The notes beneath the pieces were generated by a model. The model saw nothing but the letters and a program-made list of their open reading frames with translations, was not told the DNA's origin and made no database searches. Below, in pieces: positions 23,743 through 38,396 of a DNA stretch of 42,559 nucleotides (its first letter is position 1; each line of letters begins with the position of its first letter). The DNA comes from an uncultured Cellvibrionales bacterium (GTDB lineage Bacteria; Pseudomonadota; Gammaproteobacteria; Pseudomonadales; Cellvibrionaceae): positions 1 to 42,559 of the forward strand of contig CAJWCA010000002.1 in assembly GCA_913020395.1 (NCBI GenBank). The letters are read 5' to 3'. The translations under genes and the position numbers were made by a program.

Positions 23743-25098
23743 TCAAGCCTGGAACATTTTAATATTGGGGTTATCGAATACGCTTGCCCCCGGGTCGAGA
23801 ATTTGCAGATAACGGTCAAAATACAGGAATTGTTTGAGCAGCATGGTAAAGGCGCGAGGAAATCGAATGCCGTGGTTTTTCCCTATCTCACCCAACTGCA
23901 TCATCAGGTCGTTGATTGTGCCGGCCTGCATTTGTGATTGAAGATCTATTGCACCTGAGGGCTGCACCTGCCCCAGGGAGGCAAACAAGCGGGCGATGTC
24001 CATGCTTAAACGGTCGAGATCGACCTGGTCCCGGGTAATGCCTACGGCCAACATGGCTTCGGCAACCGCACGATAGTCCTGTAAACCCAAGGCGCTAAAC
24101 AAGCTGAATGTGGAAGCCCAGACGTCCTTCGAAATGCGCCCCACCATGCCGAAATCAATAAAGCCAACTCGACCGTCATCCAATAGCAGCATATTGCCAC
24201 TATGCAAATCGGCGTGGAAAAAGTCGCACTGGGTCAAGCTGGCAAACCAGGTGTTTAAGGCATTGAACAGAGCCTCAGAGGCATTTGCCGAGTGTGTTTG
24301 TAATGCCTTGGTGTCGGTCAAAGAGCAGCCATAAAAACGCTCCATGGTCAGCACTTTGGCACCAGATGCCTGACGGTAAGGTTTGGGGGCAGTGACTTGC
24401 CTGTTGCCGGTTTCTTGTAAAAACTGGCGAAAGTGTTCGAGATTATCGGCCTCTTTTACAAAGTCACATTCATCGATCATTGCCTGATACATTTCTTCAA
24501 TAATGCCGGCAATCGCATCTTTCTCAAGATTGGGCAACATCAACTCCATCAGGCGAGTGAGTATATAGACGGTGTTTAAATCCACCATTATCTCAGCGGC
24601 CACGCCCGGCTTTTGTACTTTTACGACTACGTGCTCCCCGCTTTTTAGAACGGCGGCATGAACCTGGGCAATGGAGGCGGACGCCAGGGGTTCGGGGTCG
24701 AATTGGCTGTAGACCTCATGGATAGATTGTTTTAATTCCCGTTCAAGCAATTTTTTAATTTTGCGGTAGGAAATGGGGGCGGTCTTGTCGAGCAGCAGCT
24801 GAAACTCCTCCACATAGTCTGCGGGAAACAACGAGGGAGAGCTGGCAATAAATTGCCCACACTTAATATAGGTAGCACCCAGCGCTTCAAAAAGCTCCCG
24901 CACTTCTCGGGCTGGCGGGCGTTGACGTTTGATCAGCCACTTGGCCGCCCGGGGATAGGTTTGAATAAGAAAACGCGTTAAGCGCAGACTACCGCGAACG
25001 CCCAGTTCAGCCAAACCGACCGTGCGATTACCTGGGCTTGCAGAGTTGAGGAGTCCGGGGAGCTGAGGAAGGCGAACCATTTGTCTTAAACCTGTCAT
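23743..25098 (-). CDS. ABC1/UbiB/AarF-family atypical kinase-like protein
   Basis: The 451-residue protein has the family hallmarks: KxGQ motif as YIKCGQF (79-82), the Ala-rich substitute of the glycine loop in PLASASIAQVHAAV, Lys160 in VVVKVQKPG, catalytic-loop HADLHSGN (295-302) and metal-binding DFG (315-317). Bacterial UbiB supports ubiquinone synthesis or transport and other members act in lipid homeostasis; members outside ubi operons have less certain roles. The C-terminal membrane helices of canonical UbiB are not evident. No ribosome site is obvious before ATG 25098; Met7 is an alternative. It lies next to the lipid operon but points the other way. Confidence 0.88.
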   Translation of the reverse strand: MTGLRQMVRLPQLPGLLNSASPGNRTVGLAELGVRGSLRLTRFLIQTYPRAAKWLIKRQRPPAREVRELFEALGATYIKCGQFIASSPSLFPADYVEEFQLLLDKTAPISYRKIKKLLERELKQSIHEVYSQFDPEPLASASIAQVHAAVLKSGEHVVVKVQKPGVAAEIMVDLNTVYILTRLMELMLPNLEKDAIAGIIEEMYQAMIDECDFVKEADNLEHFRQFLQETGNRQVTAPKPYRQASGAKVLTMERFYGCSLTDTKALQTHSANASEALFNALNTWFASLTQCDFFHADLHSGNMLLLDDGRVGFIDFGMVGRISKDVWASTFSLFSALGLQDYRAVAEAMLAVGITRDQVDLDRLSMDIARLFASLGQVQPSGAIDLQSQMQAGTINDLMMQLGEIGKNHGIRFPRAFTMLLKQFLYFDRYLQILDPGASVFDNPNIKMFQA

Positions 25099-25837: not shown

Positions 25838-27334
25838 ATGAACGTACATGCGGATGTTACAAAGGAAGTCGAGCGCCAGCCGGAAGGCGCCCATATTGGC
25901 GCTTTTTTTGATTTTGACGGAACGGTTATTGCCGGCTTCTCGGTTAAATCATTTGTGCAAGAACAACTGCGCCGTGGCGATATCGGGCCGCGCGAGTTTG
26001 CCGAACTCACCGCCACCTTCGCGAACTTTAGTTTGGGTAGAATGGGTTTCTCCGCCCTGATGGTAGCCAGTTCAAAAATGATGAAGGGTGTACCGGAGCA
26101 GCAATACATCGACTTTGGTGAAGAGCTTTACGAGAAACATCTGTCGCGCTTGATTTATCCGGAATCTCGCGCTCTGATTGAAGCCCATTTAGACAAGGGT
26201 CACACGGTGGCTTTGATCTCATCCGCCACCCGCTACCAGGTAGAGGCGGCAGCACAAGACTTGGGTTTCCAACACATTCTGTACACTGAGATGGAAGTGG
26301 AAGACGGCGTTTTTACAGGCAATGTAATCAGCCCCACCTGCTACGGTGAAGGCAAAATGACCGCGGCCAGTAAGCTCGCCGAGGAAGTCGACATCGACCT
26401 CGAAAAAAGCTTCTTCTACACTGACAGCCACGAAGATCTGCCCCTGCTTGAGGGCGTTGGCCATCCTCAGGTACTCAACCCCACCAAGAAGTTGGTCAGT
26501 ATTGCTGAAAGGCGCGGATGGCCTATTCGCCGTTTCCGCAGTCGCGGTCGGCCTAAAATGACCGACTACCTGCGCACCGCTGCCGCCACCTTTAGCCTGG
26601 TGCCCACTTTTGCCGCCAGCTTGCCCATTCAAATGTTAACGGGTTCAAAGCGTGAGGCCCTGAACTATTCCACTTCACTGTTTGGCGATACCGCAGCGGC
26701 ACTGATCGGCTTGCACCTGAACACAAGGGGCGAGCAACACCTTTGGTCCCATCGTCCGGCCGTCTTTATTTTTAACCACCAAAGCCAGGCCGACGCAGTC
26801 ATCATACCCAAGCTATTACGCCGGGACATTGCCGGGGTCGGTAAAAAAGAAATCAAAGAAGACAATTACATCATTGGCAAAATTTTTGAGTACGGTGGCA
26901 CCGTATTGATCGATCGTAAAGACGGCCAAAGCGCCGTTGAAGCTATGCAGCCGCTGGTGGATACACTCAGGAACGAGGGCCGCTCGGTGGTATTGTCTCC
27001 AGAGGGCACCCGCACCATTGGTCCGAAACTGGCGCCGTTCAAGAAAGGTGCGTTTCACCTCGCCATTCAGGCCGAGGTAGCCATTGTGCCAATCGTAATT
27101 CACAACTCCTGCGATGTGCAGCCCAAAGGCGACTGGGTATACCGTCCGGGCACCGTGGAAATCGATGTATTACCGCCGGTGGACACCAGTGACTGGACGG
27201 TGGAAACCATCGACCAGCATGTGGCTGACGTGAGGCAGATGTTCCTCGACACTCTGGGGCAGACCGAGGAAGACGAGGACGAAGCAGATGTGATTGAAGG
27301 CGCCGAGGTCGAAGAGGAAGATACCGATGTCTGA
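25838..27334 (+). CDS. Bifunctional HAD-IB phosphatase / PlsC-type acyltransferase
   Basis: The 498-residue protein joins two enzymes. Residues about 20-225 are a HAD family IB (SerB-like) phosphatase: nucleophile Asp25 and Asp27 in FFDFDGTV, motif II Ser in LISSATRY (128), and motif IV DSHED (196-200). Residues about 285-470 are a PlsC-type 1-acylglycerol-3-phosphate acyltransferase with NHQSQAD (His314, Asp319) and EGTRT (389-393). The pair could acylate lysophosphatidate and dephosphorylate phosphatidate to diacylglycerol, although the HAD substrate is inferred. The last 23 residues hold 14 acidic residues. It heads the lipid operon; its stop codon overlaps the next start by eight bases. 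Confidence 0.9.
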   Translation: MNVHADVTKEVERQPEGAHIGAFFDFDGTVIAGFSVKSFVQEQLRRGDIGPREFAELTATFANFSLGRMGFSALMVASSKMMKGVPEQQYIDFGEELYEKHLSRLIYPESRALIEAHLDKGHTVALISSATRYQVEAAAQDLGFQHILYTEMEVEDGVFTGNVISPTCYGEGKMTAASKLAEEVDIDLEKSFFYTDSHEDLPLLEGVGHPQVLNPTKKLVSIAERRGWPIRRFRSRGRPKMTDYLRTAAATFSLVPTFAASLPIQMLTGSKREALNYSTSLFGDTAAALIGLHLNTRGEQHLWSHRPAVFIFNHQSQADAVIIPKLLRRDIAGVGKKEIKEDNYIIGKIFEYGGTVLIDRKDGQSAVEAMQPLVDTLRNEGRSVVLSPEGTRTIGPKLAPFKKGAFHLAIQAEVAIVPIVIHNSCDVQPKGDWVYRPGTVEIDVLPPVDTSDWTVETIDQHVADVRQMFLDTLGQTEEDEDEADVIEGAEVEEEDTDV

Positions 27335-28814
27335 CCGCCAACAGCTCACGGCCCAGGACGCTCAGTTCCTGTTTTTGGAAACCGACAATAACCTGGGTAA
27401 TGTCACAGGGTGTCAAATTTTTGAACCGGAAGAGGGCGAGACAGAGGCTTACAGTCTGGCGCAATTTATTGCACACCTGAGCTCGCGCCTGAACGTGTCT
27501 CCCATTTTCACCCAGCGCCTGCAAAAGGTGCCGCTTGAGCTGGATTTTCCCTATTGGGTAACGGATGAATATTTTGATGTGAAGTCCCACGCCTCTTCCG
27601 TGAAATTATCGGCATCGGCCAACTGGTCAGAGTTGTGTGAGATTGTGGGTCGCTTTCATAGCCGCTCCCTCGATATGCAGCGCCCCCTGTGGGAGATGTT
27701 ATTAATTGAAGATGTCGGCAATATTGAAGGTTTTGCGCCGGGTAGTTTTGCCGTTGTCAGCAAATTGCACCATTGCGCCATCGACGGAACCTCAGGGGTA
27801 CGGGTCATGGCGGCGCTCACCGACATCGATGCCCAGGGTACACCCGTATTCCCGGTTCCCGAACAAGCGCCAGCGGAACGTAAACCTCAGTCGTTCGAGC
27901 AGATGATGACCCGGGCCGCCTGCAGCAATATCAGCTCTCCTGTAAAATTGGCTAGTTCGCTACTCAGTGCCTATCCCACCGTTTACCCGACCCTGCGTCG
28001 CGCCTTTGCCGGCGGCGACACTGAAAAGTCGGCAGTGCCCGATACCCGCTTTAACAAAGACACTTCTCCTCACAAGGTGTTTGACGGTTTAACCCTTAAT
28101 CTGGCTGACTTTAAACACATCAGAAAACTGGTAGAAGGCTCAACCATCAACGACGTTGTATTGGCAATCAGTAGCGGTGGTTTGCGCAAATACCTGCAAC
28201 ATCATCAAGAGCTGCCATCGGAATCTCTGGTCGCCTGTGCCCCCATTAATATTCGCTCTAAAGGTGGCAATAAAGATAAGGGCGGCAAGGGCAAAGAGGA
28301 GGTTAGTGGCAACAACATCACCGCAATGAATATCCCTCTTTTTACCCAGGAGCCGGACCCGGTTATACGCCTGGCTCGCATTCACCAGCTGGCAGCGGAG
28401 TCAAAAGCCGGCAAAAAAGGGATCTCGGCCCGTCTAATGACCGATATTTCCAAACACATACCCGGTTTTTCGCTGTCCATGGCCACTCGAGTGCTGGTGC
28501 GTTCGGGTAATCTCAGTAGAATGGTGAATACCTTTATTTCTAATGTGCCCGGGCCTCAGATTCCGGTCTATATGAACGGCCGCAAATGCACGCAAACCTA
28601 CGCCATGGCCCCTCTGGCTGACGGTATGGGTTTGTTTCTCGCGACGCCAAGCTACAACGGGAAGATGTTTTTCTCCATCACCGCCACACGGGAAATTGTG
28701 CCGGACATGGCGTTCCTTGTCAGCTGCTTCCAGGGGGCCTTTGACGAGTTGTTGAACACTGCCCAGGATGCTCAAGACAGCCCGCTAAGCGCGAGCATAG
28801 AGTCACCGATTTAA
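27327..28814 (+). CDS. WS/DGAT-family wax ester synthase / diacylglycerol acyltransferase
   Basis: The 495-residue enzyme has the catalytic HHxxxDG motif as HHCAIDG (148-154), RPLWEM (119-124), NDVVLAISSGGLRKYL (275-290) and a late ISNVPGP motif. The family transfers acyl groups from acyl-CoA to diacylglycerol or long-chain alcohols, making triacylglycerol or wax esters at the inner membrane. ATG 27327 is chosen because GAGGAAG lies just upstream and the gene then overlaps the preceding stop by eight bases, indicating translational coupling. Residues 311-327 form an unusual Lys/Gly-rich insert (GGNKDKGGKGK) absent from the second copy in this window. Confidence 0.95.
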   Translation: MSDRQQLTAQDAQFLFLETDNNLGNVTGCQIFEPEEGETEAYSLAQFIAHLSSRLNVSPIFTQRLQKVPLELDFPYWVTDEYFDVKSHASSVKLSASANWSELCEIVGRFHSRSLDMQRPLWEMLLIEDVGNIEGFAPGSFAVVSKLHHCAIDGTSGVRVMAALTDIDAQGTPVFPVPEQAPAERKPQSFEQMMTRAACSNISSPVKLASSLLSAYPTVYPTLRRAFAGGDTEKSAVPDTRFNKDTSPHKVFDGLTLNLADFKHIRKLVEGSTINDVVLAISSGGLRKYLQHHQELPSESLVACAPINIRSKGGNKDKGGKGKEEVSGNNITAMNIPLFTQEPDPVIRLARIHQLAAESKAGKKGISARLMTDISKHIPGFSLSMATRVLVRSGNLSRMVNTFISNVPGPQIPVYMNGRKCTQTYAMAPLADGMGLFLATPSYNGKMFFSITATREIVPDMAFLVSCFQGAFDELLNTAQDAQDSPLSASIESPI

Positions 28815-28827
28815 GCAGAGGGAAACA

Positions 28828-29856
28828 ATGTTCTGGATTTTACTCATACTTACCCTGGCTGTTGCAGCGGTGCTCTGTCTTTATTTTTACAAGCCCCACG
28901 AGCTCTATCACGGAGCGGTCAATCTAGCACTGCGCCTCACCGGGTTTCAGCGGAGGAGCCTCACGGTTGACGACGAGCACTGGCACTACCTCGAGGGCGG
29001 CGCCAGTAACAGTGCTGTGATGGTACTGCTGCACGGCTTTGGGGCAAACAAAGAAAGCTGGCTGCCCTACGCCCGTCTGCTAACAGCTAAGTACCGTGTC
29101 ATCGTGCCCGACCTACCCGGCTTTGGCGAAAGTGCCCAGATCATGGATAAAGATTACAGTTCCAAAACCCAGGCCAATCGGCTGTACGCACTGTTAACCC
29201 ATCTTGGTATTGAACACTGCCACCTATCCGGAAACTCCATGGGTGGACTGATAGCCGCGCGTTATGCCATCGCTTTCCAGCAGAGCGTTGAATCCCTGAC
29301 ACTGTTCAACAATGCAGGGATCGACTCCGAGCAGCAAACACCTTTCTTCGAGAAAATGTTCCAAGGAGATGCCACCTTGGTTGCTCGCTCGCAGGAAGAG
29401 TTTAAACAAATACTGGCCTTAGTCACCCACCGTCCCATGAAAATTCCGGCGAACATTTTTCGTGTGCTTGCTGAAGATTCTATCGCCCGAGCCCCTTTGC
29501 TGGACCACATTTTTGCCTCCCTGAAAGAGGAGGTTCTCGAGGTTTATCTCAATCAATACCTGCCAGAGATCAAGGTGCCGACGCTGGTATTGTGGGGGCG
29601 GCAGGACAATATTTTCGACTGCAGCCATGTCAATATCATGTTAGAGCACATTCCGGACAGTCACGGCGTTATTCTGGAGAGCACCGGCCACGTACCGATG
29701 TTGGAGCGGCCCGGCGACACTGTGCGCCATCAACTTCATTTTCTTGAAACCCGAGCATTAACCGCAGGTCAAATGACGAGTGAAAACGTCAACACCCGCC
29801 AACAAATTTTTGATCACAAAACGTCTACACCCCGGCAAACAGCAAAACAACAATAA
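28828..29856 (+). CDS. Membrane-anchored alpha/beta hydrolase, lipase-like
   Basis: The 342-residue protein begins with a hydrophobic anchor (MFWILLILTLAVAAVLCLYF) followed by an alpha/beta-hydrolase fold: LLHGFGANKESW for the oxyanion hole, nucleophile Ser137 in GNSMGG, acid Asp260 in WGRQDN, and His288 in ESTGHVPML. It resembles monoacylglycerol lipases and Moraxella-type lipases and could release fatty acids from acylglycerols at the membrane. GAGGGA lies just before the start, and the gene follows the WS/DGAT gene by 13 bp within the operon. Its 3' end is 16 bp before the plsB start. Substrate inferred from context. Confidence 0.88.
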   Translation: MFWILLILTLAVAAVLCLYFYKPHELYHGAVNLALRLTGFQRRSLTVDDEHWHYLEGGASNSAVMVLLHGFGANKESWLPYARLLTAKYRVIVPDLPGFGESAQIMDKDYSSKTQANRLYALLTHLGIEHCHLSGNSMGGLIAARYAIAFQQSVESLTLFNNAGIDSEQQTPFFEKMFQGDATLVARSQEEFKQILALVTHRPMKIPANIFRVLAEDSIARAPLLDHIFASLKEEVLEVYLNQYLPEIKVPTLVLWGRQDNIFDCSHVNIMLEHIPDSHGVILESTGHVPMLERPGDTVRHQLHFLETRALTAGQMTSENVNTRQQIFDHKTSTPRQTAKQQ

Positions 29857-29872
29857 CGCAGAGGCAGCCAGT

Positions 29873-32305
29873 ATGTATTCCTTTGAAAGCGCGTGGCCCA
29901 GTGAAGTCGATTCCAGCATCGTCTTTCTCATCGACAGCAACAATCGCCTGCAAACTCGATTGCTCAAGCGTTGGATCGACAGCACCAATGTCGACAAGCG
30001 CGACTACCAGGTGATTGATTTTGCCAAAAGCTCGCGAACGCAGATGGCAAAGAGTCTCGAAGCGCTACAGGGTTTGCCGGACGATACCTATTTAGTCCCT
30101 TTACGCACGCTTTGGTTTTCCAAGCAGGCTAGTCGATGCCCTTCGCTACAGGAGGAGGCACCGACATGGCGCCACATCATTTTGGGCGACCCACGAACTC
30201 CGGGCAATTGGCGCCAGTCGATGATTCACACCTTCGATGCTCAGCGCAGCAAACCCCTGTCGGCACAGGGGGCAACCCTTAGTGATTTAAAACGACGTTT
30301 TGAGTTGGCACACCCCGGCGCAGGCCAAGACTCAGCATTACTGGTGGAATACGTGGGTCGTCAGGCCTTGCTGACTCTGGAGCGAGCGGAGCGAATGATT
30401 CGCGGCGCACGTTATAAGATGCCCGCTCTGGTGGCTGAAGAAGTGCTGTCCAAACCCAACCTGGTGAAAGACCTGGTGGACGAGTCCGAACGCTCGCTCA
30501 AATCCATGGACTCCCTAATGGATTACGCCGGAAAGTGCCTTCAGGAAGTTGCCGCCCGGCCCACATCCCTGGCGGTTGATATCATGGCGGGCCTCGGGCG
30601 TTACCTCTACACCTCCGGCTTTGATCGGGAAATTGAAATGTCGGACGAAGACGTTCAACGCGTTCGCAAACTCGTGGGTGAACGCCCGGTGGTGTTTCTG
30701 ATGACACACCGCTCCCATTTGGACGGGTTTCTGATGACCACTTTGTTTTACGATATGAACCTGACACCGCTACACACCTTTGGCGGCATTAACATGAACT
30801 TTTTTGGTTTCGGCACTCTGTTCCGCCGGGCCGGCGCTATTTTTATTCGCCGCAGTTTTGAAGGAGACCGGGTCTACAAATCGGTGTTTTCCCAGTATAT
30901 CGAGTATCTGGTTGAGAAACGCTTTCCACTGCTGTGGGCTCTGGAGGGCACACGTTCCCGCACCGGAAAATTGATGCCCCCGCGCTATGGGCTGATCCGC
31001 TATGTCGTCGACGCCGCCAAACGCAATGAAAATGCTGATGTGCTGTTTGTGCCTGTGTCGATTGTTTACGATCAAGTGCCAGAGGTAAAAGATTATGCCA
31101 ACCTGCAGTCGGGCGGCGTCAAGCGCCCGGAGTCTGCCAGCTGGTTTATGCAATATATCAGCGGATTGAAAAATCCGTTTGGCAAAATTCACGTAAAATT
31201 CGGAAAGGGTGTGGCCATGTCCGATGTGATGCACAACCCCGAAGTGTCAACGCTGGAAGTCCAAAAACTGGCCTTTCAATTATCGGTGGACGCCAATAAC
31301 GCCACCGCTGTTGCGCCGACCGCCATCATCACCTACGTGTTACTGATTCATGGTACCCGAGCCTTGAGCCAGCAAGAATTGGTCACGGAGATCGCCAGCT
31401 TACTGGATCTGCTGCGCTGCTTAAATTGCCCACTGACCGCCGATGCCGACCTCAGCCAGCCCGCTATCCTCAGTAGCGTGCTGGACCAACTCACCCAAAC
31501 GGGTGTTATCGTGACTTACAAAGACGGCCCTGAGCCCGTTTACGCAGTTGCCCAGGAATCCGTGCGCACCGCAGCTTACTACCGCAACAGCATGATCCAT
31601 TTCCTGGTGATGGGTGCCATTGCCGATCTGGCACTGCTGAGCCTGACAGAACAAGCCCAGCTGAGCAGCCGCGAACAGGCACTCGATATCTTGCGCAACG
31701 AGGCCTTGCGTATTCGGGATCTCATGAAATTCGAATTCTTTTTCGAAGAGAAAGAGACCTTTCTCGAACAGTTGGAGGGCGAGCTTAGCCTTCGGCTAGG
31801 CGTGGAAGACTGGAGCGATTGTTTAACCCAGGGGCGCCAAACAATTAGAACCACGCTGTGGAAGCTCAGTCCGCTACTGGCTCACGGCGCGCTGCGACCT
31901 TTTGTGGAGGCTTATCACCTGACCGCTGAAGCCGCCGTAACGGAATTGCAAGGCGAGACTGAAGAAATTCCCGACCAGGAAAGCATTTCCAAAACGGCCC
32001 TTTCGCTCGGCAAACAACGGGTTCTGCAGCAACGTATTAACTGCGAGGAATCCGTCTCTCAAACCTATATCGATAATGGTATCAAGCTATTAAAAAGCAA
32101 AGGCTGCATGGTGGGCTCCCGTGCGCAACAATTTCAAAAATGTAATGACGCCCTGCAAGAGTTGGGAACGCTGGTACGAAGAATCGAGTTTATCGCCTCT
32201 CTGGCGGAAAGCCGTCGTACACGCCAACCGCACGCCTATCAACAAACGGAAGAAAGCCAAAACAAAGACGCCAATAATGACAAGCAATTGCTCAACGTTG
32301 GTTAA
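29873..32305 (+). CDS. plsB: Glycerol-3-phosphate 1-O-acyltransferase PlsB
   Basis: The 810-residue inner-membrane enzyme makes 1-acylglycerol-3-phosphate from glycerol-3-phosphate and acyl-CoA or acyl-ACP, the first committed step of glycerolipid synthesis. Its length is normal for PlsB. Acyltransferase block I is THRSHLDG (His279, Asp284), followed by GAIFIRRSF, EGTRSRTGK and FVPVSIVYD. Start ATG 29873 with GAGG about nine bases upstream is preferred; the open frame extends 31 codons into the previous gene, but that extension is not PlsB-like. It lies in the middle of the lipid operon, 15 bp before gpsA, which supplies its substrate. Confidence 0.95.
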   Translation: MYSFESAWPSEVDSSIVFLIDSNNRLQTRLLKRWIDSTNVDKRDYQVIDFAKSSRTQMAKSLEALQGLPDDTYLVPLRTLWFSKQASRCPSLQEEAPTWRHIILGDPRTPGNWRQSMIHTFDAQRSKPLSAQGATLSDLKRRFELAHPGAGQDSALLVEYVGRQALLTLERAERMIRGARYKMPALVAEEVLSKPNLVKDLVDESERSLKSMDSLMDYAGKCLQEVAARPTSLAVDIMAGLGRYLYTSGFDREIEMSDEDVQRVRKLVGERPVVFLMTHRSHLDGFLMTTLFYDMNLTPLHTFGGINMNFFGFGTLFRRAGAIFIRRSFEGDRVYKSVFSQYIEYLVEKRFPLLWALEGTRSRTGKLMPPRYGLIRYVVDAAKRNENADVLFVPVSIVYDQVPEVKDYANLQSGGVKRPESASWFMQYISGLKNPFGKIHVKFGKGVAMSDVMHNPEVSTLEVQKLAFQLSVDANNATAVAPTAIITYVLLIHGTRALSQQELVTEIASLLDLLRCLNCPLTADADLSQPAILSSVLDQLTQTGVIVTYKDGPEPVYAVAQESVRTAAYYRNSMIHFLVMGAIADLALLSLTEQAQLSSREQALDILRNEALRIRDLMKFEFFFEEKETFLEQLEGELSLRLGVEDWSDCLTQGRQTIRTTLWKLSPLLAHGALRPFVEAYHLTAEAAVTELQGETEEIPDQESISKTALSLGKQRVLQQRINCEESVSQTYIDNGIKLLKSKGCMVGSRAQQFQKCNDALQELGTLVRRIEFIASLAESRRTRQPHAYQQTEESQNKDANNDKQLLNVG

Positions 32306-32320
32306 GGGGAGGGTGATCAC

Positions 32321-33322
32321 ATGAAATTAAAAGTAGGTGTATTAGGTGGCGGCAGTTGGGGCACAACAGTGGCCTCTCTGGCTTCCAGAAACACAGAGAC
32401 CATGATCTGGGCCCGCGACACCGCCACGGTCACAGAAATCAATGAGCAACACACCAACGAGAAATATTTGCCCGGTGCCAAGCTCCACTCTCGGCTGACC
32501 GCAACATCAGACATCAAAGCACTGGTTTCCAGTGCTGATGTGCTGGTCGTCGGCATTCCCTCCCAATCCTTTCGCGAAGTATTAGAGAGTGTCAAAGACT
32601 ACGTGCGGCCGTGGGTCCCCGTGGTCAGCCTGACCAAGGGGCTGGAACGCACAACCAACAAACGCATGACCGAGATCATTCATGAGGTTCTGCCCGGCCA
32701 CCCCACGGGTGTTTTAAGTGGCCCTAACCTGGCTCGTGAAGTGATGGCCGGTCATGCCGCCGCCAGCGTGATTGCAATGGAAGACCCGTTTATTCTCTCG
32801 GAATTGCAGAAGGTGTTTAACTCTGGATTATTTCGAGTTTACACCAACCGCGATGTCATTGGCTGTGAGCTTGGCGGTGTGCTCAAGAACATTGTCGCCA
32901 TTGCTGCCGGCATGGGCGACGGTCAGGGCGCTGGCGTGAATACACGCTCTGCCATTATTGCCCGAGGGCTCGCAGAGTCGACCCGTCTCGGGGTTGCGAT
33001 GGGTGGAGAACCGCAAACGTTTGCCGGACTCGCAGGCCTTGGCGACCTGGTCGCCACCTGTACCAGCGAACAAAGCCGCAACCGCCATGTGGGTTATCAT
33101 CTGGGCAAGGGTCAGACCATTGACGAAATTATCGAGTCCATGCACATGGTCGCCGAAGGGGCCAAGAGCGCCCCTACCGTGATTGAACTGGCGAAACTTT
33201 ATGACGTAAAAATGCCGATCGCCGAGGAAGTTTACAAAGTAGTGTCGGGTCAGGGCTCTGCACTAGACGCCTACCGCGGACTACTTCGCTCTACTGCCGG
33301 CGATGAACTTGAGGCCGGATAG
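32321..33322 (+). CDS. gpsA: NAD(P)-dependent glycerol-3-phosphate dehydrogenase GpsA
   Basis: The 333-residue cytoplasmic enzyme reduces dihydroxyacetone phosphate to glycerol-3-phosphate. The dinucleotide-binding loop is VGVLGGGSWGTT (5-16). Conserved substrate residues are Lys106 in SLTKGLE, LSGPN (132-136) and catalytic Lys189 in GGVLKNIVAIAAG, with a C-terminal helix domain containing GLAGLGDLVATC. Length is normal. GGGAGGGTG precedes the ATG. It directly follows plsB, which consumes its product, making a two-step glycerol backbone module inside the operon. Confidence 0.97.
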   Translation: MKLKVGVLGGGSWGTTVASLASRNTETMIWARDTATVTEINEQHTNEKYLPGAKLHSRLTATSDIKALVSSADVLVVGIPSQSFREVLESVKDYVRPWVPVVSLTKGLERTTNKRMTEIIHEVLPGHPTGVLSGPNLAREVMAGHAAASVIAMEDPFILSELQKVFNSGLFRVYTNRDVIGCELGGVLKNIVAIAAGMGDGQGAGVNTRSAIIARGLAESTRLGVAMGGEPQTFAGLAGLGDLVATCTSEQSRNRHVGYHLGKGQTIDEIIESMHMVAEGAKSAPTVIELAKLYDVKMPIAEEVYKVVSGQGSALDAYRGLLRSTAGDELEAG

Positions 33323-33348
33323 ATTGATTAACCGAGAGACTGCTTTAC

Positions 33349-34833
33349 ATGTTCACATCTACAACCCGTAAATTGGAAAAGGCCATGGAGGCGGCCAACA
33401 GCTATGAGGAGTGGCGCGACGCCGCCATCCGTCATGATAAAGCACAGGGGCTGGATCGCTGGAAGGCGATGGATTTGTCCCGTCGCTATGATTTTGTCTC
33501 CATCCGCACTCGGCTGGACCGCCTGCGAGTGATGCGCGCCCGTCACGACGACCAGGGTTTACTGTTCACCCTTAATGAGGGCATTCACGGCAACATGGGA
33601 GGCATGGGCAGCGCCAAACTTTATGCCAAAGCCAAGTATGGAACCAAGCAGTTGGTGGTGGACTACGTTGACGAGATTGTGGCCGCCCTGGAGCACTTGG
33701 CCGACGATAAAACCGACAGCATCAGCTTTGAAGAAAAACTGGATTTCTTTCGCCGTGCCCATCATTGCTTTGGGTGCTCAGCCTTCATGCTCAGTGGCTC
33801 GGGCACCCTGCTTTATTTTCATGTCGGCGTGATGAAAACACTGCTGGAGCACGATCTACTGCCCAATGTGCTCTCCGGCTCCAGCGGCGGCTCCATAGTG
33901 AGTTCGATCGTAAGCTGCTACCCCAAAGAGGCACTATTAGAAAAATTCAGTCTTGAAAACCTGATAGACACGAATAACCTGGCAGACTCCAATAATACCG
34001 CTGCACCCACCTCAATGCTGGGCAGCTTGTTACAGGGTGTCATGCCCCAGCAATTGCCCGCCGAGAAATCGCGCGAGATGATTACGCAGTTGCTGCCGGA
34101 TCTAACCTTTCAGGAAGCTTTCGAGCTCACCGGGCGCCATCTGAACGTATCGGTTGCACCGGTGGAAGCCCACCAAACTTCACGACTGCTTAATGCCTAT
34201 ACATCGCCCAATGTCTTCATTCGCGAAGCCGTTTTTGCGTCCAGTGCCATTCCGGGAATTTACCCCCCCGTTACGCTGGCGGCCAAAAATGATCACGGTG
34301 AGCGCCAGACTTACCTGCCTTCTCGTCAGTGGGTGGATGGCTCGGTTAGCGACGACCTGCCAGCCAAACGCCTGGCGAGACTCTATGGCGTTAACCACTA
34401 TATTGTCAGTCAGACCAATCCACATGTGATCCCTTTTATCGCTGACAATAAGCGCGATGGCAGCCCACTGTCACAAATTAAATATGCCGGTATGAAGACG
34501 GCGCGCACCTGGCTCAATACCAGTGCAGAAGTTATGCGCAAACCCCTGTCTTACAGCCAAACGCTGTCAAGAGTATCCAATATTGCTCTGTCGGTATTGA
34601 ATCAGGACTATGTCGGGGATATTAATATCTTGCCATCCACCCGACTCTTCAATCCCGTCAAACTGCTGGCCAAGCGCAGTGAAAAGGACATTCGAGAACT
34701 GGTATTGATGGGCGAACGGGCCACCTGGCCAAAACTGGAGATGATTCGAGTACAGACATTGATTGGGCGTACCCTGGATCGTATTTTGAAGGACTATGAA
34801 GACCGGGTTCTACAGAAAACCGGTCAGGAGTGA
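33349..34833 (+). CDS. Patatin-like lipase with N-terminal DUF3336 domain
   Basis: The 494-residue protein has a DUF3336 region at about 10-140 (YEEWRDAAIRHDKAQGLDRWKA), followed by a patatin domain at about 145-350. The oxyanion segment is SGSGTLLYFHVG, the nucleophile Ser179 sits in GSSGG, and the dyad Asp330 in WVDGS. The same pairing occurs in yeast Tgl3/4/5 and plant SDP1 triacylglycerol lipases, so lipid-store hydrolysis is the best inference; phospholipase activity is possible. It lies 26 bp after gpsA on the same strand. No signal peptide, so cytoplasmic or associated with lipid inclusions. Confidence 0.92.
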   Translation: MFTSTTRKLEKAMEAANSYEEWRDAAIRHDKAQGLDRWKAMDLSRRYDFVSIRTRLDRLRVMRARHDDQGLLFTLNEGIHGNMGGMGSAKLYAKAKYGTKQLVVDYVDEIVAALEHLADDKTDSISFEEKLDFFRRAHHCFGCSAFMLSGSGTLLYFHVGVMKTLLEHDLLPNVLSGSSGGSIVSSIVSCYPKEALLEKFSLENLIDTNNLADSNNTAAPTSMLGSLLQGVMPQQLPAEKSREMITQLLPDLTFQEAFELTGRHLNVSVAPVEAHQTSRLLNAYTSPNVFIREAVFASSAIPGIYPPVTLAAKNDHGERQTYLPSRQWVDGSVSDDLPAKRLARLYGVNHYIVSQTNPHVIPFIADNKRDGSPLSQIKYAGMKTARTWLNTSAEVMRKPLSYSQTLSRVSNIALSVLNQDYVGDINILPSTRLFNPVKLLAKRSEKDIRELVLMGERATWPKLEMIRVQTLIGRTLDRILKDYEDRVLQKTGQE

Positions 34834-34896
34834 GACAGCTTAAACTGGCGTTGTAAGGACGTTGAGCTGCTTTGAATCTCTTAAGAGGAATTCCTT

Positions 34897-35514
34897 ATGG
34901 ATAATGATGACGACGACCAGCCTTCAAACAAGCCCAGTGGTAAGGGCTCTTCCTCTCCTTGGGGCGCGCTAATCAAAGGTGTGCCGCAGATGCTTTACAA
35001 GGCCGGAGGTCAATCTAAAAACCTGCTGGAAATGACCCTCAAGGCGCCGGAGTACCTTGAGCAGCTTGGCAAGGCGGGACATAAGCTGCGGGATTTGCGC
35101 GAGGTTTCCAAACTCACCATTGAAGACCTTTCGAGCGCGATAAATCTGGAGAACCCGGATTTGCTGCGGAGCATAGAAGAAGGTCGCTCACCGGTTACCA
35201 TGGACATCCTCTTTCGCCTGGCCTCATTTTATTCCCGCAACGACCCGATGTCGTTCATGTTGTCGTTCAGCAAAGATTACGCGCCCTGGCTCTGGTATGT
35301 GCTGCGCATAACGGGCATGGAAAAAATGCTGATAAGCATTGAGAGGGAATTGAAGTTTATTAATATCTATCGGAGTAAGGACGATGCCCGTAATTTAAAC
35401 GACGAGGACTTTGCCAAAGTCCTTGGATTTACACAAAAGTCGTTTGATATGGCGGTGGAGTTTATTGCCGAATCACCTCCGGCTAAAGATGAGCCAAAAG
35501 CGGAGGATCCTTAA
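34897..35514 (+). CDS. Cro/C1-type HTH protein, possible regulator of the lipid operon
   Basis: This 205-residue protein has a very acidic start (MDNDDDDQ) and an amphipathic-looking segment (about 20-55, PWGALIKGVPQMLYKAGG). An XRE-type helix-turn-helix follows at about 61-115 (LRDLREVSKLTIEDLSSAINLE, IEEGRSPVTMDILFRLASFY). The C-terminal part is helical, with the unusual aromatic stretch YAPWLWYVLRI. AAGAGGAATT precedes the start. It follows the patatin gene by 63 bp, so it is probably the last gene of the operon, perhaps sensing lipid status or associating with membranes or lipid bodies. That role is inferred. Confidence 0.75.
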   Translation: MDNDDDDQPSNKPSGKGSSSPWGALIKGVPQMLYKAGGQSKNLLEMTLKAPEYLEQLGKAGHKLRDLREVSKLTIEDLSSAINLENPDLLRSIEEGRSPVTMDILFRLASFYSRNDPMSFMLSFSKDYAPWLWYVLRITGMEKMLISIERELKFINIYRSKDDARNLNDEDFAKVLGFTQKSFDMAVEFIAESPPAKDEPKAEDP

Positions 35515-35625: not shown

Positions 35626-36657
35626 ATGAAAACAGATCAACACATCAAAAACACGACTGTTCATGCTGAGATCGTTGGCCGTTTACTGAAAGGTGCGGTG
35701 CGGGCGGGCATGGACGTGGATGATTTACTCAAGCGCTGCGACATAAATCCGCTCACTCTGCACGCTCCCAACCACCGAGTGCCCGTTGAAAATACGGTAA
35801 AACTCTTTCGTTTATGCAGCGGGTTAATGCAGGATGAACTGATAGGCCTACTGGACACGCCCCTGCCGATGGGTTATTTCAGAATGGCACTGCTGAGCAC
35901 ACTTCACCAAAGCAATTTGGGCAAGGCGCTACAACGGTTTTTTGAGTTTAACGACCTGATAAGCAAAGATGTTGAGTTTGCCTTCAACGACCAGAGCAAC
36001 CAGGCAGAAATTACCTTCACGCGTGCCCCTGATGTGTCTTTTGCTGATGATATTGCACTCGACTACCTCATTATGTGCACTCACAGAATGGCCAGCTGGC
36101 TGTGTAACGAATCAATCGCAATCAATGAGATTGAGTTTGACCACGCCGCGCCTTCATTTCAAAAGGAATACCAGCACATTTTCTTTGGAGCATCCTTTAC
36201 CTTCAACGCCACGCGCAATCGCATCACCTTTGACAAGCGATGCCTGGCGCTGCCCATTATGCGGGATGAGGCTGCTGTCAGCGCCTACTATCAACGCGCA
36301 CCACTGGGTCTTTTTCTACCTCAGGACGTACGATACTCTACCAAGAAGGCCGTTCGCAAAATAATAAAACAGAAGTTTGCCAAACAGGCTTATAGAGTCG
36401 ACTTACAGGAAGTTTCTCAGATGATACAACTGGGGGAGCAAACCATACGGCGCCGCTTGGCCAAAGAAGGCACTAGTTTTAACTGTATCAAAACTCAGGT
36501 TAAGCAAGACATCGCCATGAGCTCCCTGAGCAATCCGCAGCTAAGCCTGGAGGAGATTTCCATTCGCTCAGGTTATTCGAAGCCCGCGGCATTTATCCGG
36601 GCGTTTAAAACCTGGACCGGATTTTCACCCGCCAGGTTTCGCAAAGGCATCAGCTAA
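35626..36657 (+). CDS. AraC-family transcriptional regulator
   Basis: The 343-residue protein has an N-terminal Arabinose_bd-type ligand domain (about 20-210) and a C-terminal AraC DNA-binding domain at about 240-340 with two helix-turn-helix units (VDLQEVSQMIQLGEQTIRRRLAKEG and LSLEEISIRSGYSKPAAFIRAFKTWTG, quoted in part). The closing motif GFSPARFRK is typical. Related regulators (OruR/ArgR/MmoR-like group) respond to amino acids or fatty-acid-like compounds. It lies 111 bp after the HTH gene and converges with the second WS/DGAT gene, so lipid metabolism is a plausible target; this is inference from position. Confidence 0.92.
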   Translation: MKTDQHIKNTTVHAEIVGRLLKGAVRAGMDVDDLLKRCDINPLTLHAPNHRVPVENTVKLFRLCSGLMQDELIGLLDTPLPMGYFRMALLSTLHQSNLGKALQRFFEFNDLISKDVEFAFNDQSNQAEITFTRAPDVSFADDIALDYLIMCTHRMASWLCNESIAINEIEFDHAAPSFQKEYQHIFFGASFTFNATRNRITFDKRCLALPIMRDEAAVSAYYQRAPLGLFLPQDVRYSTKKAVRKIIKQKFAKQAYRVDLQEVSQMIQLGEQTIRRRLAKEGTSFNCIKTQVKQDIAMSSLSNPQLSLEEISIRSGYSKPAAFIRAFKTWTGFSPARFRKGIS

Positions 36658-36678: not shown

Positions 36679-38199
36679 TTATGGGGAGGCCGCGGCCTTC
36701 TTGGTCTTGAGGCTCGCCACCCCGGCCACGTCTGCCGGAGCTGCATCATTGTTAGTGGCTTCTTCCAACTCCAGACTACGCTTTAGTAACTTCTTGTGAG
36801 CGGCTTCCATATAGTTGCCCAGCTCAGCGACATCCGGCATCAAACGTCGGCAGGCAATCAAACCAAAATCGAGCCAGCCATTGTAGCTTTGCAGAGTAAT
36901 ATTCAAGCCGAAGCCGTGGTAGGGGATCGACACGGGATAAACGCTGATCTGCTTGGCACCCGCAAAATACAGCGTCATGTTTGGACCCGGCACGTTGGAT
37001 ATCACCACATTGGCCATCGGTGGCACGGCATTGGTGATGCCCGAACGTATCATTGTTGACGCGACACCACTCATCAGCCAGGGGGCCCCGAGTGAGGGGA
37101 AATCCGTCGGCAGAATAGTTTTTACATCGGACAGCAATGACTTGGCGTGCTCCGCCGAGGCGTGAATCGCCTTCAGGCGCTCAATAGGGTCTTTGATGTT
37201 TGTCGCCAGGCTCATGCGGGCCATAGAGACCTGGTTTGTGAGTTCTGTGTTTCCCTCTGGCCTGATGCTCACCGGCACCGCCGCCACTAAAGCTTTATCA
37301 GGGTGGCAGCCTTCGTCCGCCAGATACCGTTTCATTCCCTCCGCCGAAATGGCCATCACCACATCATTGAGGCTAACCTTATTGATGGCGGCAATACGCT
37401 TGCTCTCTGCCAGAGGAATCGAGAAGCGGGCGAAGCTGCGTTGATTGGTAATGGGTTTATTTAAGGGCGTCTTGGGCGCAAACCAGTCCATGCGCTCTGC
37501 GCTGGAATCGGCAGAATCACTTTTAGGCGGACGGAGGATTTGAAATGCCTTGCGCGCCAAACCGGGCAGGGTTTTTGCGAGTTTGAAGGATTGTCCAATA
37601 TTATGCGCAACACTGGAGGCCGCAAGCTCTGCAACGCCAAAGTTATCTGCTTGATAGAGCGCCCTGTTTCGAGTGGGTTTTTTCTCATCTCGTGGAACAG
37701 CGCTGACATCCAAGATCGCCTGCGCCAACACTTGTCCGCCCATACCGTCTAGCGCCGCATGGTGCATTTTTGAATACAGGCCAACGTAGCGGGTGCCCTC
37801 CGGCGCCGAAGACGGCACGGGTAATCCGTCCAGCACATACATTTCCCACAGCGGTCTGCTGCGATCCAACAAACTGGAGTGGATCCGGGCGACTAAACGA
37901 TCAACGGTGCTTCGAGTGGCAGGGGGCGGCACGATGACATGACGGATGTGGTGATCGATGTCGAGGTGTTCTTCCTTTACCCACACCGGATTGGCAATAT
38001 CAAACGGCATGTTCAGCAGCTTTCGCTGAAAAATATCCGCCAAATGCATTCGGTTTGTGATGTGAGTGCGCACATCTTCCATAAAATCGCCCGAATATTC
38101 GGGAGGGAGCTCAAGTATGTTCAAGCTGCCAACGTGCATGGGTGTTTCGGGGCTCTCAAGATGCAGAAAGGCGGCATCCAGTCCGGTGAGATGATTCAT
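36679..38199 (-). CDS. WS/DGAT-family wax ester synthase / diacylglycerol acyltransferase, second copy
   Basis: This 506-residue enzyme starts at MNHLTGLDAAFLH, the usual family N-terminus. ATG 38199 has GAGG eight bases upstream on this strand, while the ATG at 38223 does not. Catalytic motif HHAALDG is at 146-152, with RPLWEM, NDVVMAISAEGMKRYL, ISNVPGPNM and a conserved late SYNGWLDFG. It is clearly paralogous to the copy at 27.3 kb but divergent and on the opposite strand, with an Ala/Lys-rich tail. Two copies suggest different acyl or alcohol preferences or different regulation. The AraC gene converges on it from the left; a TetR gene lies upstream on the same strand. Confidence 0.95.
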   Translation of the reverse strand: MNHLTGLDAAFLHLESPETPMHVGSLNILELPPEYSGDFMEDVRTHITNRMHLADIFQRKLLNMPFDIANPVWVKEEHLDIDHHIRHVIVPPPATRSTVDRLVARIHSSLLDRSRPLWEMYVLDGLPVPSSAPEGTRYVGLYSKMHHAALDGMGGQVLAQAILDVSAVPRDEKKPTRNRALYQADNFGVAELAASSVAHNIGQSFKLAKTLPGLARKAFQILRPPKSDSADSSAERMDWFAPKTPLNKPITNQRSFARFSIPLAESKRIAAINKVSLNDVVMAISAEGMKRYLADEGCHPDKALVAAVPVSIRPEGNTELTNQVSMARMSLATNIKDPIERLKAIHASAEHAKSLLSDVKTILPTDFPSLGAPWLMSGVASTMIRSGITNAVPPMANVVISNVPGPNMTLYFAGAKQISVYPVSIPYHGFGLNITLQSYNGWLDFGLIACRRLMPDVAELGNYMEAAHKKLLKRSLELEEATNNDAAPADVAGVASLKTKKAAASP

Positions 38200-38396
38200 A
38201 TCGCGCGCCTCGGGAAGTGGCAATGATTGAAAGTGTTCCAGAGGCTATCTTCGCACAATGCGTCTGAAATTTGTAGCAGCTGTTCGGCTTCAGCGATGCC
38301 TGTAACAACAGGCGTTACTTATATCTACGATACTAAGGTCTTGCCAGGGCGATTGAAGGCGAGTGGTAAGTGGTTGATGTTTTTTACCTTGGTAGG

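Follow-up and report, generated by a model that had tools for sequence, protein, structure and literature searches.

The window analysed here, a 42,559-nt stretch that constitutes contig C2 of a 4.4-Mb metagenome-assembled genome (MAG) of an uncultured Cellvibrionales bacterium, carries at positions 25838-35514 seven open reading frames (ORFs), all on the plus strand. There is good support for reading them as a module dedicated to glycerolipid, and the operon is probably one for neutral lipid, with triacylglycerol (TAG) as its predicted product. All the enzyme families leading from dihydroxyacetone phosphate (DHAP) to TAG are encoded with intact motifs, as the initial annotation of this DNA had proposed. 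The module reading is carried by a GpsA paralogue of the unit's own, a PRK03355-like PlsB, a gene order kept in a named isolate and the position of both WS/DGAT genes found in the bin inside the window. What the annotation had suggested to be a neutral-lipid module stands as a glycerolipid module, with TAG as the likely rather than the observed product.

Gene order and family assignment

Neighbouring ORFs overlap by 8 bp (27327-27334) or follow each other at gaps of 13, 16, 15, 26 and 63 bp, which agrees with the coordinates and the spacing first annotated. These values assume ATG starts at 27327 (WS/DGAT) and 29873 (PlsB), the mechanical ORF starts being TTG at 27294 and GTG at 29780, respectively. 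Such spacing is compatible with co-transcription of all seven genes. A consensus scan of the six junctions revealed no terminator-like site, but its values (promoter 9 vs 9.0 and terminator 14 vs 13.2 in shuffled sequence) were at chance level and, therefore, uninformative.

Families were assigned by Pfam and NCBIfam scans of ten proteins, namely the seven gene products and three neighbours; the motifs named below are those with generally accepted active-site roles in these families. The names HAD-PlsC, WS/DGAT, PlsB, GpsA and DUF3336-patatin given in the annotation were recovered, albeit PlsB under the cut-off of its best model, whereas the helix-turn-helix (HTH) protein remained under the cut-offs and the "lipase" proved to be a relative of PlaF. 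In the first gene product, the HAD domain reached 170 bits with TIGR01490 (cut-off 98), and the acyltransferase domain was over the cut-off of PF01553 and slightly below that of TIGR00530 (95 bits, cut-off 103), with intact HAD (DFDGT, LISS, GEGK and DSHEDLP) and PlsC (HQSQAD and EGTR) motifs. It is a predicted lysophosphatidate acyltransferase fused to an HAD-IB phosphatase, the latter likely responsible for the step from phosphatidate to diacylglycerol (DAG). The WS/DGAT, searched as the protein from its second codon (27330), scored 386 bits with TIGR02946 (cut-off 310) and has the motif HHCAIDG. The best NCBIfam model for PlsB was PRK03355 with 639 bits (next model 347), under the curated cut-off of 721; the protein is nearer to this model than to that of Escherichia coli PlsB and carries the motifs HRSHLD, GAIFIRR and EGTRSRTGK. 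GpsA scored 498 bits with PRK12439 (curated cut-off 436), with the nucleotide-binding motif GGGSWG.

Conservation in the family and in the order

In Pseudomaricurvus alkylphenolicus (G395; Cellvibrionaceae by NCBI), the first six genes are present in identical order, with identities of 85, 75, 70, 80, 87 and 79%, respectively; the conservation among relatives that the annotation had suggested looking for is, in this isolate, found for six of the seven genes. This result bears on the idea that the genes are chance neighbours, an assembly artefact or part of a contaminant contig, which is very improbable. The MAG (83.9% complete) has 5.3% contamination, a figure that speaks for such an origin, but the order kept in a named isolate refutes chance. 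Moreover, the first 20 kb of the contig, the sole part compared, had their best match among 143 family genomes in a genome of the same genus (G300; 74% over 4.2 kb), and a contaminant contig was rejected on this ground.

Among 144 family genomes, the window's included, matches to the operon PlsB were confined to three: the window's own, P. alkylphenolicus at 81% and again at 33%, and G394 at 33-34%. No PlsB match was present in any of the 12 other family members within the order draw. Elsewhere in the order, seven further families show portions of the six-gene block. In the order set of 293 genomes, the PlsB type was defined by a PRK03355 score of >600 bits, a threshold of our own choice, and was found in 27 genomes, the window's included, with seven families represented besides the window's (f4, f13, f23, f31, f39, f40 and f47).

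Neighbours of this PlsB were counted at 30 loci from the 26 other genomes, as genes on its strand at most 6 kb away, and per genome over all its loci. HAD-PlsC was a neighbour in 23 of the 26 genomes, the operon-type GpsA and a Hydrolase_4-like gene in 16 each, WS/DGAT in 10 (with either window copy as the query), DUF3336-patatin in 6 (a fragment in G063 was left uncounted) and a PlaF-like gene in a single one, as a partial match 5.9 kb away. DUF3336 proteins as such are present in 91 of the 293 genomes and stand near the PlsB type only in the window and in these six. Nine unnamed neighbours were scanned in Pfam: eight matched PF12146 (seven of the 16 genomes and P. alkylphenolicus), which we take to be monoacylglycerol-lipase-like, and the ninth was aspartyl-protease-like. 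The plain reading of these counts is that the wider conserved core consists of HAD-PlsC, PlsB and GpsA, to which WS/DGAT and hydrolases are often added. In the loci examined, a PlaF-like gene inside the unit is confined to the window and P. alkylphenolicus; relatives on the opposite strand occur in a few of the fetched stretches (L042, L057, L062 and L078).

P. alkylphenolicus also possesses a second cluster (L078; G395:C70:89000-108900) with HAD-PlsC, PlsB2, WS/DGAT and a Hydrolase_4 gene, with neither GpsA nor patatin in the stretch examined. In a quick PlsB2 tree, built with long rows present, the window groups with f23 (SH-aLRT 100). A mosaic origin, with PlsB and patatin from an f23-type source and HAD-PlsC and GpsA from an f4/f13/f40 type, looked likely from the identities. 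It is not claimed, because the HAD-PlsC data do not reject the grouping of the window with f23 (approximately unbiased test, p 0.275; 27 of 33 rows, six long or distant ones having been dropped).

The glycerol-3-phosphate enzymes

The annotation had regarded plsB and gpsA as usually scattered housekeeping genes and proposed looking for them elsewhere in the genome. For gpsA, a second copy is indeed present in the bin, on contig C47. The operon GpsA is 42-43% identical to this copy and 57-87% identical to its counterparts in other genomes (type 2). Type 2 is a discrete group, with 31 loci of at least 403 bits in the 293 order genomes (own included) and the next match at 289 bits; among the 30 other loci, 16 are near the PlsB type and 2 more beside HAD-PlsC. 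The C47 copy is best read as the housekeeping GpsA and the operon copy as a putative specialised paralogue. Rhodococcus jostii likewise has two gpsA genes, of which gpsA2 is reported to be upregulated 3.4-fold and gpsA downregulated 6-fold under nitrogen limitation (PMC4850399); gpsA2 is set beside the operon GpsA as a parallel and not by sequence.

For plsB, the housekeeping label did not hold: the operon copy is the one GPAT_C gene found in the bin, and of the three matching family genomes one matches at 33-34% only. The sparse distribution is relevant to another, rather unlikely explanation, namely that the operon mainly makes and remodels membrane phospholipid. GpsA, PlsB2 and PlsC would then supply phosphatidate, the PlaF-like hydrolase would remodel acyl chains in a Lands cycle, and WS/DGAT would drain surplus acyl-CoA and DAG. 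The lack of another GPAT_C gene and of a PlsY match in the bin agrees with this, as does the fact that the phosphatidate-making genes form the widest core; furthermore, the hydrolase is nearest to PlaF, which is reported to alter membrane phospholipid (PMC9132575), and the comparable Rhodococcus operon was read as housekeeping (PMC4850399). On the other hand, with only 3 of 144 family genomes matching the operon PlsB, the relatives evidently build their membranes without it, and the unit contains DUF3336-patatin and WS/DGAT. The PlsY result is, moreover, unsafe: neither the bin nor any of the 143 family genomes gave a match, yet a Bacteroides control that presumably possesses PlsY gave none in this search either. 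The argument that the operon PlsB is the sole glycerol-3-phosphate acyltransferase (GPAT) of the cell was, therefore, not used. A listing of acyltransferases from eight genomes, with family scans of some of the proteins, yielded PlsC-like proteins, YihG, OlsF, MFS-acyltransferase fusions and unnamed proteins of ~360-390 aa, which do not settle what serves as GPAT in the relatives. One of the proteins scanned, of 580 aa (L126:367-2106 in G057), was over the cut-off for OlsF, the bifunctional ornithine-lipid synthase. A dedicated neutral-lipid module is preferred to a membrane role.

The two hydrolases

The initial annotation had counted two lipases. The best PDB match of the third gene product is 6i8w (PlaF; E 1.7e-63), over residues 2-307 of 342, a span that takes in the membrane helix; ABHD6 (7ots, E 3.5e-31) is one of the next matches. 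It has the nucleophile motif GNSMG and an N-terminal hydrophobic stretch, so that the features of the PlaF/ABHD6 type are present: a membrane helix (by hydropathy and the PlaF alignment), the alpha/beta-hydrolase triad and near full-length similarity. Since it matches PlaF, membrane helix included, and ABHD6, this protein is more likely a phospholipase A or a monoacylglycerol lipase than a TAG lipase. PlaF is described as a membrane-anchored phospholipase A1 acting on membrane phospholipid, with its catalytic domain reportedly extending into the periplasm (PMC9132575); if the third gene product has the same orientation, it would have no access to cytoplasmic TAG.

Because the other hydrolase is a PlaF relative, the DUF3336-patatin protein is the likelier TAG-lipase candidate of the two. 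Both of its domains are present, with GxSxG (GSSGG) and the DG dyad (DGS), and we take it to be kin to the yeast Tgl3-5 and plant SDP1 TAG lipases. Its PDB search returned no relative at E 0.001, and a literature search on DUF3336-patatin lipases found no paper.

The HTH protein

The last gene had been annotated as the seventh gene of the operon. It shares the strand and follows at 63 bp, but it is missing behind the patatin gene in P. alkylphenolicus, and it is a looser member, outside the block shared with this isolate. The protein scored 22.8 bits with HTH_31 and 22.3 bits with HTH_3, below the Pfam cut-offs of 27 and 23, and its PDB search gave one weak match (E 0.064). Of the 143 family genomes searched, three had a match, namely the window's own, P. 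alkylphenolicus and G394, the same three that match the operon PlsB. In P. alkylphenolicus, the gene lies ~31 bp behind glpK (mechanical start) in a glpD-glpR-glpK locus (L099:7293-9489), where all three glp products are over their NCBIfam cut-offs. In G394 (L130:6486-9962), it directly precedes a WS/DGAT (49%) and a type-2 GpsA (74%), all in one orientation. No further copy was detected in the fetched loci with a profile built from the three proteins, genomes outside the family not having been searched.

Glycerol or TAG genes are its neighbours in all three cases, each time in a different setting. This context suggests that the HTH protein may regulate glycerol/TAG metabolism, although the cases are not fully independent, two of the genomes belonging to one genus. 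More tentatively, it could be an undescribed, lineage-specific regulator tying the supply of glycerol or glycerol-3-phosphate to TAG turnover; "undescribed" is an impression here, as no literature search was made on this protein.

Comparison with described systems

The arrangement has precedents in rhodococci and mycobacteria (PMC4850399) as well as in marine Gammaproteobacteria (PMC10351704), and the operon is a further member of this type with a fuller gene set. The exact seven-gene set was not recognised in a literature search that had most subscription papers outside its reach.

The atf9-plsB-plsC operon of R. jostii RHA1 likewise combines WS/DGAT, PlsB and a PlsC fused to HAD, and is reported as one operon by RNA-seq, which its authors read as the whole Kennedy pathway; the available text names no GpsA, DUF3336-patatin, PlaF-like or HTH gene in it (PMC4850399). 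The window shows the same hallmarks, with an HHxxxDG-type WS/DGAT close to same-strand PlsB and PlsC genes and an HAD-fused PlsC with active-site motifs. In Mycobacterium tuberculosis, Rv2482c-Rv2485c similarly form an adjacent set of PlsB2, HAD-PlsC, WS/DGAT and an esterase (LipQ) and are proposed for TAG synthesis (PMC3503283, PMC10699116). The likeness is by description, not by sequence, and neither GpsA nor patatin is named in the available parts of these two reports. In assays of the purified enzyme, M. smegmatis PlsB2 is reported to have acylated the sn-1 position (PMC10593935). The complete Kennedy clusters of marine Gammaproteobacteria also unite WS/DGAT, GPAT, PAP/AGPAT, an alpha/beta hydrolase and a lipase on one scaffold, with a glycerol-3-phosphate dehydrogenase reported adjoining GPAT; the comparison is by gene content and not by exact order, patatin has 0 occurrences in the main text of that paper, and its section 23 mentions no HTH gene (PMC10351704). 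Pseudomonas aeruginosa PlaF and human ABHD6 share with the third gene product the N-terminal membrane helix, GNSMG and near full-length similarity, a likeness in sequence alone, the lid being reported as variable between PlaF homologues (PMC9132575).

Coordinates and neighbouring genes

An ABC1/UbiB-like kinase gene lies upstream at 23743-25098 on the minus strand, facing away from the operon with ~740 bp between them.

Table 1. Operon genes and downstream neighbours, in window coordinates.
Feature	Position	Strand	Basis
HAD-PlsC fusion, 498 aa	25838..27334	+	PF12710, PF01553 and TIGR01490 over cut-off
WS/DGAT, predicted acyl-CoA:diacylglycerol acyltransferase	27327..28814 (ATG start)	+	TIGR02946; HHCAIDG
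PlaF/ABHD6-like membrane-anchored alpha/beta hydrolase	28828..29856	+	PDB 6i8w and 7ots matches; GNSMG
PlsB2-type glycerol-3-phosphate acyltransferase	29873..32305	+	GPAT_C over cut-off; PRK03355
GpsA, NAD(P)H-dependent glycerol-3-phosphate dehydrogenase	32321..33322	+	PRK12439 over cut-off
DUF3336-patatin hydrolase	33349..34833	+	PF11815 and PF01734 over cut-off; GSSGG, DGS
HTH protein, 205 aa, candidate regulator	34897..35514	+	HTH_31/HTH_3 under cut-off
AraC-family regulator, 111 bp downstream	35626..36657	+	Pfam scan
Second WS/DGAT, convergent with the AraC gene	36679..38223	-	Pfam and NCBIfam scans

Proposed function

In the proposed scheme, GpsA would convert DHAP to glycerol-3-phosphate, from which PlsB2 would form lysophosphatidate and the PlsC domain phosphatidate; the fused HAD domain would take the phosphate off to give DAG, and WS/DGAT would add the third acyl chain to yield TAG. 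Fatty acids would be freed from TAG on demand by the DUF3336-patatin protein, the PlaF-like hydrolase would cleave acyl chains off phospholipid or monoacylglycerol, and the HTH protein may tune the module to the supply of glycerol or glycerol-3-phosphate. A single transcript, the substrates named, the phosphatidate phosphatase activity of the HAD domain and the regulatory role of the HTH protein are, like the product, predictions. Clusters of similar make-up have been assigned to the Kennedy pathway or to TAG synthesis (PMC4850399, PMC3503283, PMC10351704).

Several observations weigh against this scheme. In R. jostii, the atf9 transcript (atf9-plsB-plsC) is reported 5.4-fold lower in the transition phase under nitrogen limitation, a condition in which TAG builds up, and a "house-keeping" function is proposed by the authors (PMC4850399); since the transcript falls at that point, storage is not the sole possible role. 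The phosphatase function of HAD-PlsC is called unestablished (PMC4850399, PMC10351704). The wider core is one of phosphatidate synthesis and not of TAG, since WS/DGAT accompanies this PlsB type in only 10 of the 26 order genomes, and the linkage of type-2 GpsA is common, not universal, because 12 of the 30 other loci, in stretches of 8.6-19.9 kb, are beside neither PlsB2 nor HAD-PlsC. The same-genus genome G300, 88% complete, has no match to the operon PlsB, and the MAG itself is incomplete.

Finally, WS/DGAT enzymes can make wax esters too. That the module makes these rather than TAG is improbable: the family is bifunctional and the window holds two of its genes, but no fatty acyl reductase was recognised in the ten scanned proteins (the rest of the window and of the genome was not searched for one), and glycerol-3-phosphate enzymes serve glycerides. 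A module for TAG accordingly remains the preferred interpretation.

The operon is a compact gene set, sparse in its family, that brings together its own source of glycerol-3-phosphate, the enzymes from phosphatidate to TAG and a likely lipase. It is a convenient unit for asking whether the fused HAD domain is a phosphatidate phosphatase, a question left open in previous work (PMC4850399, PMC10351704), and it also offers a candidate regulatory protein for oil storage in bacteria.

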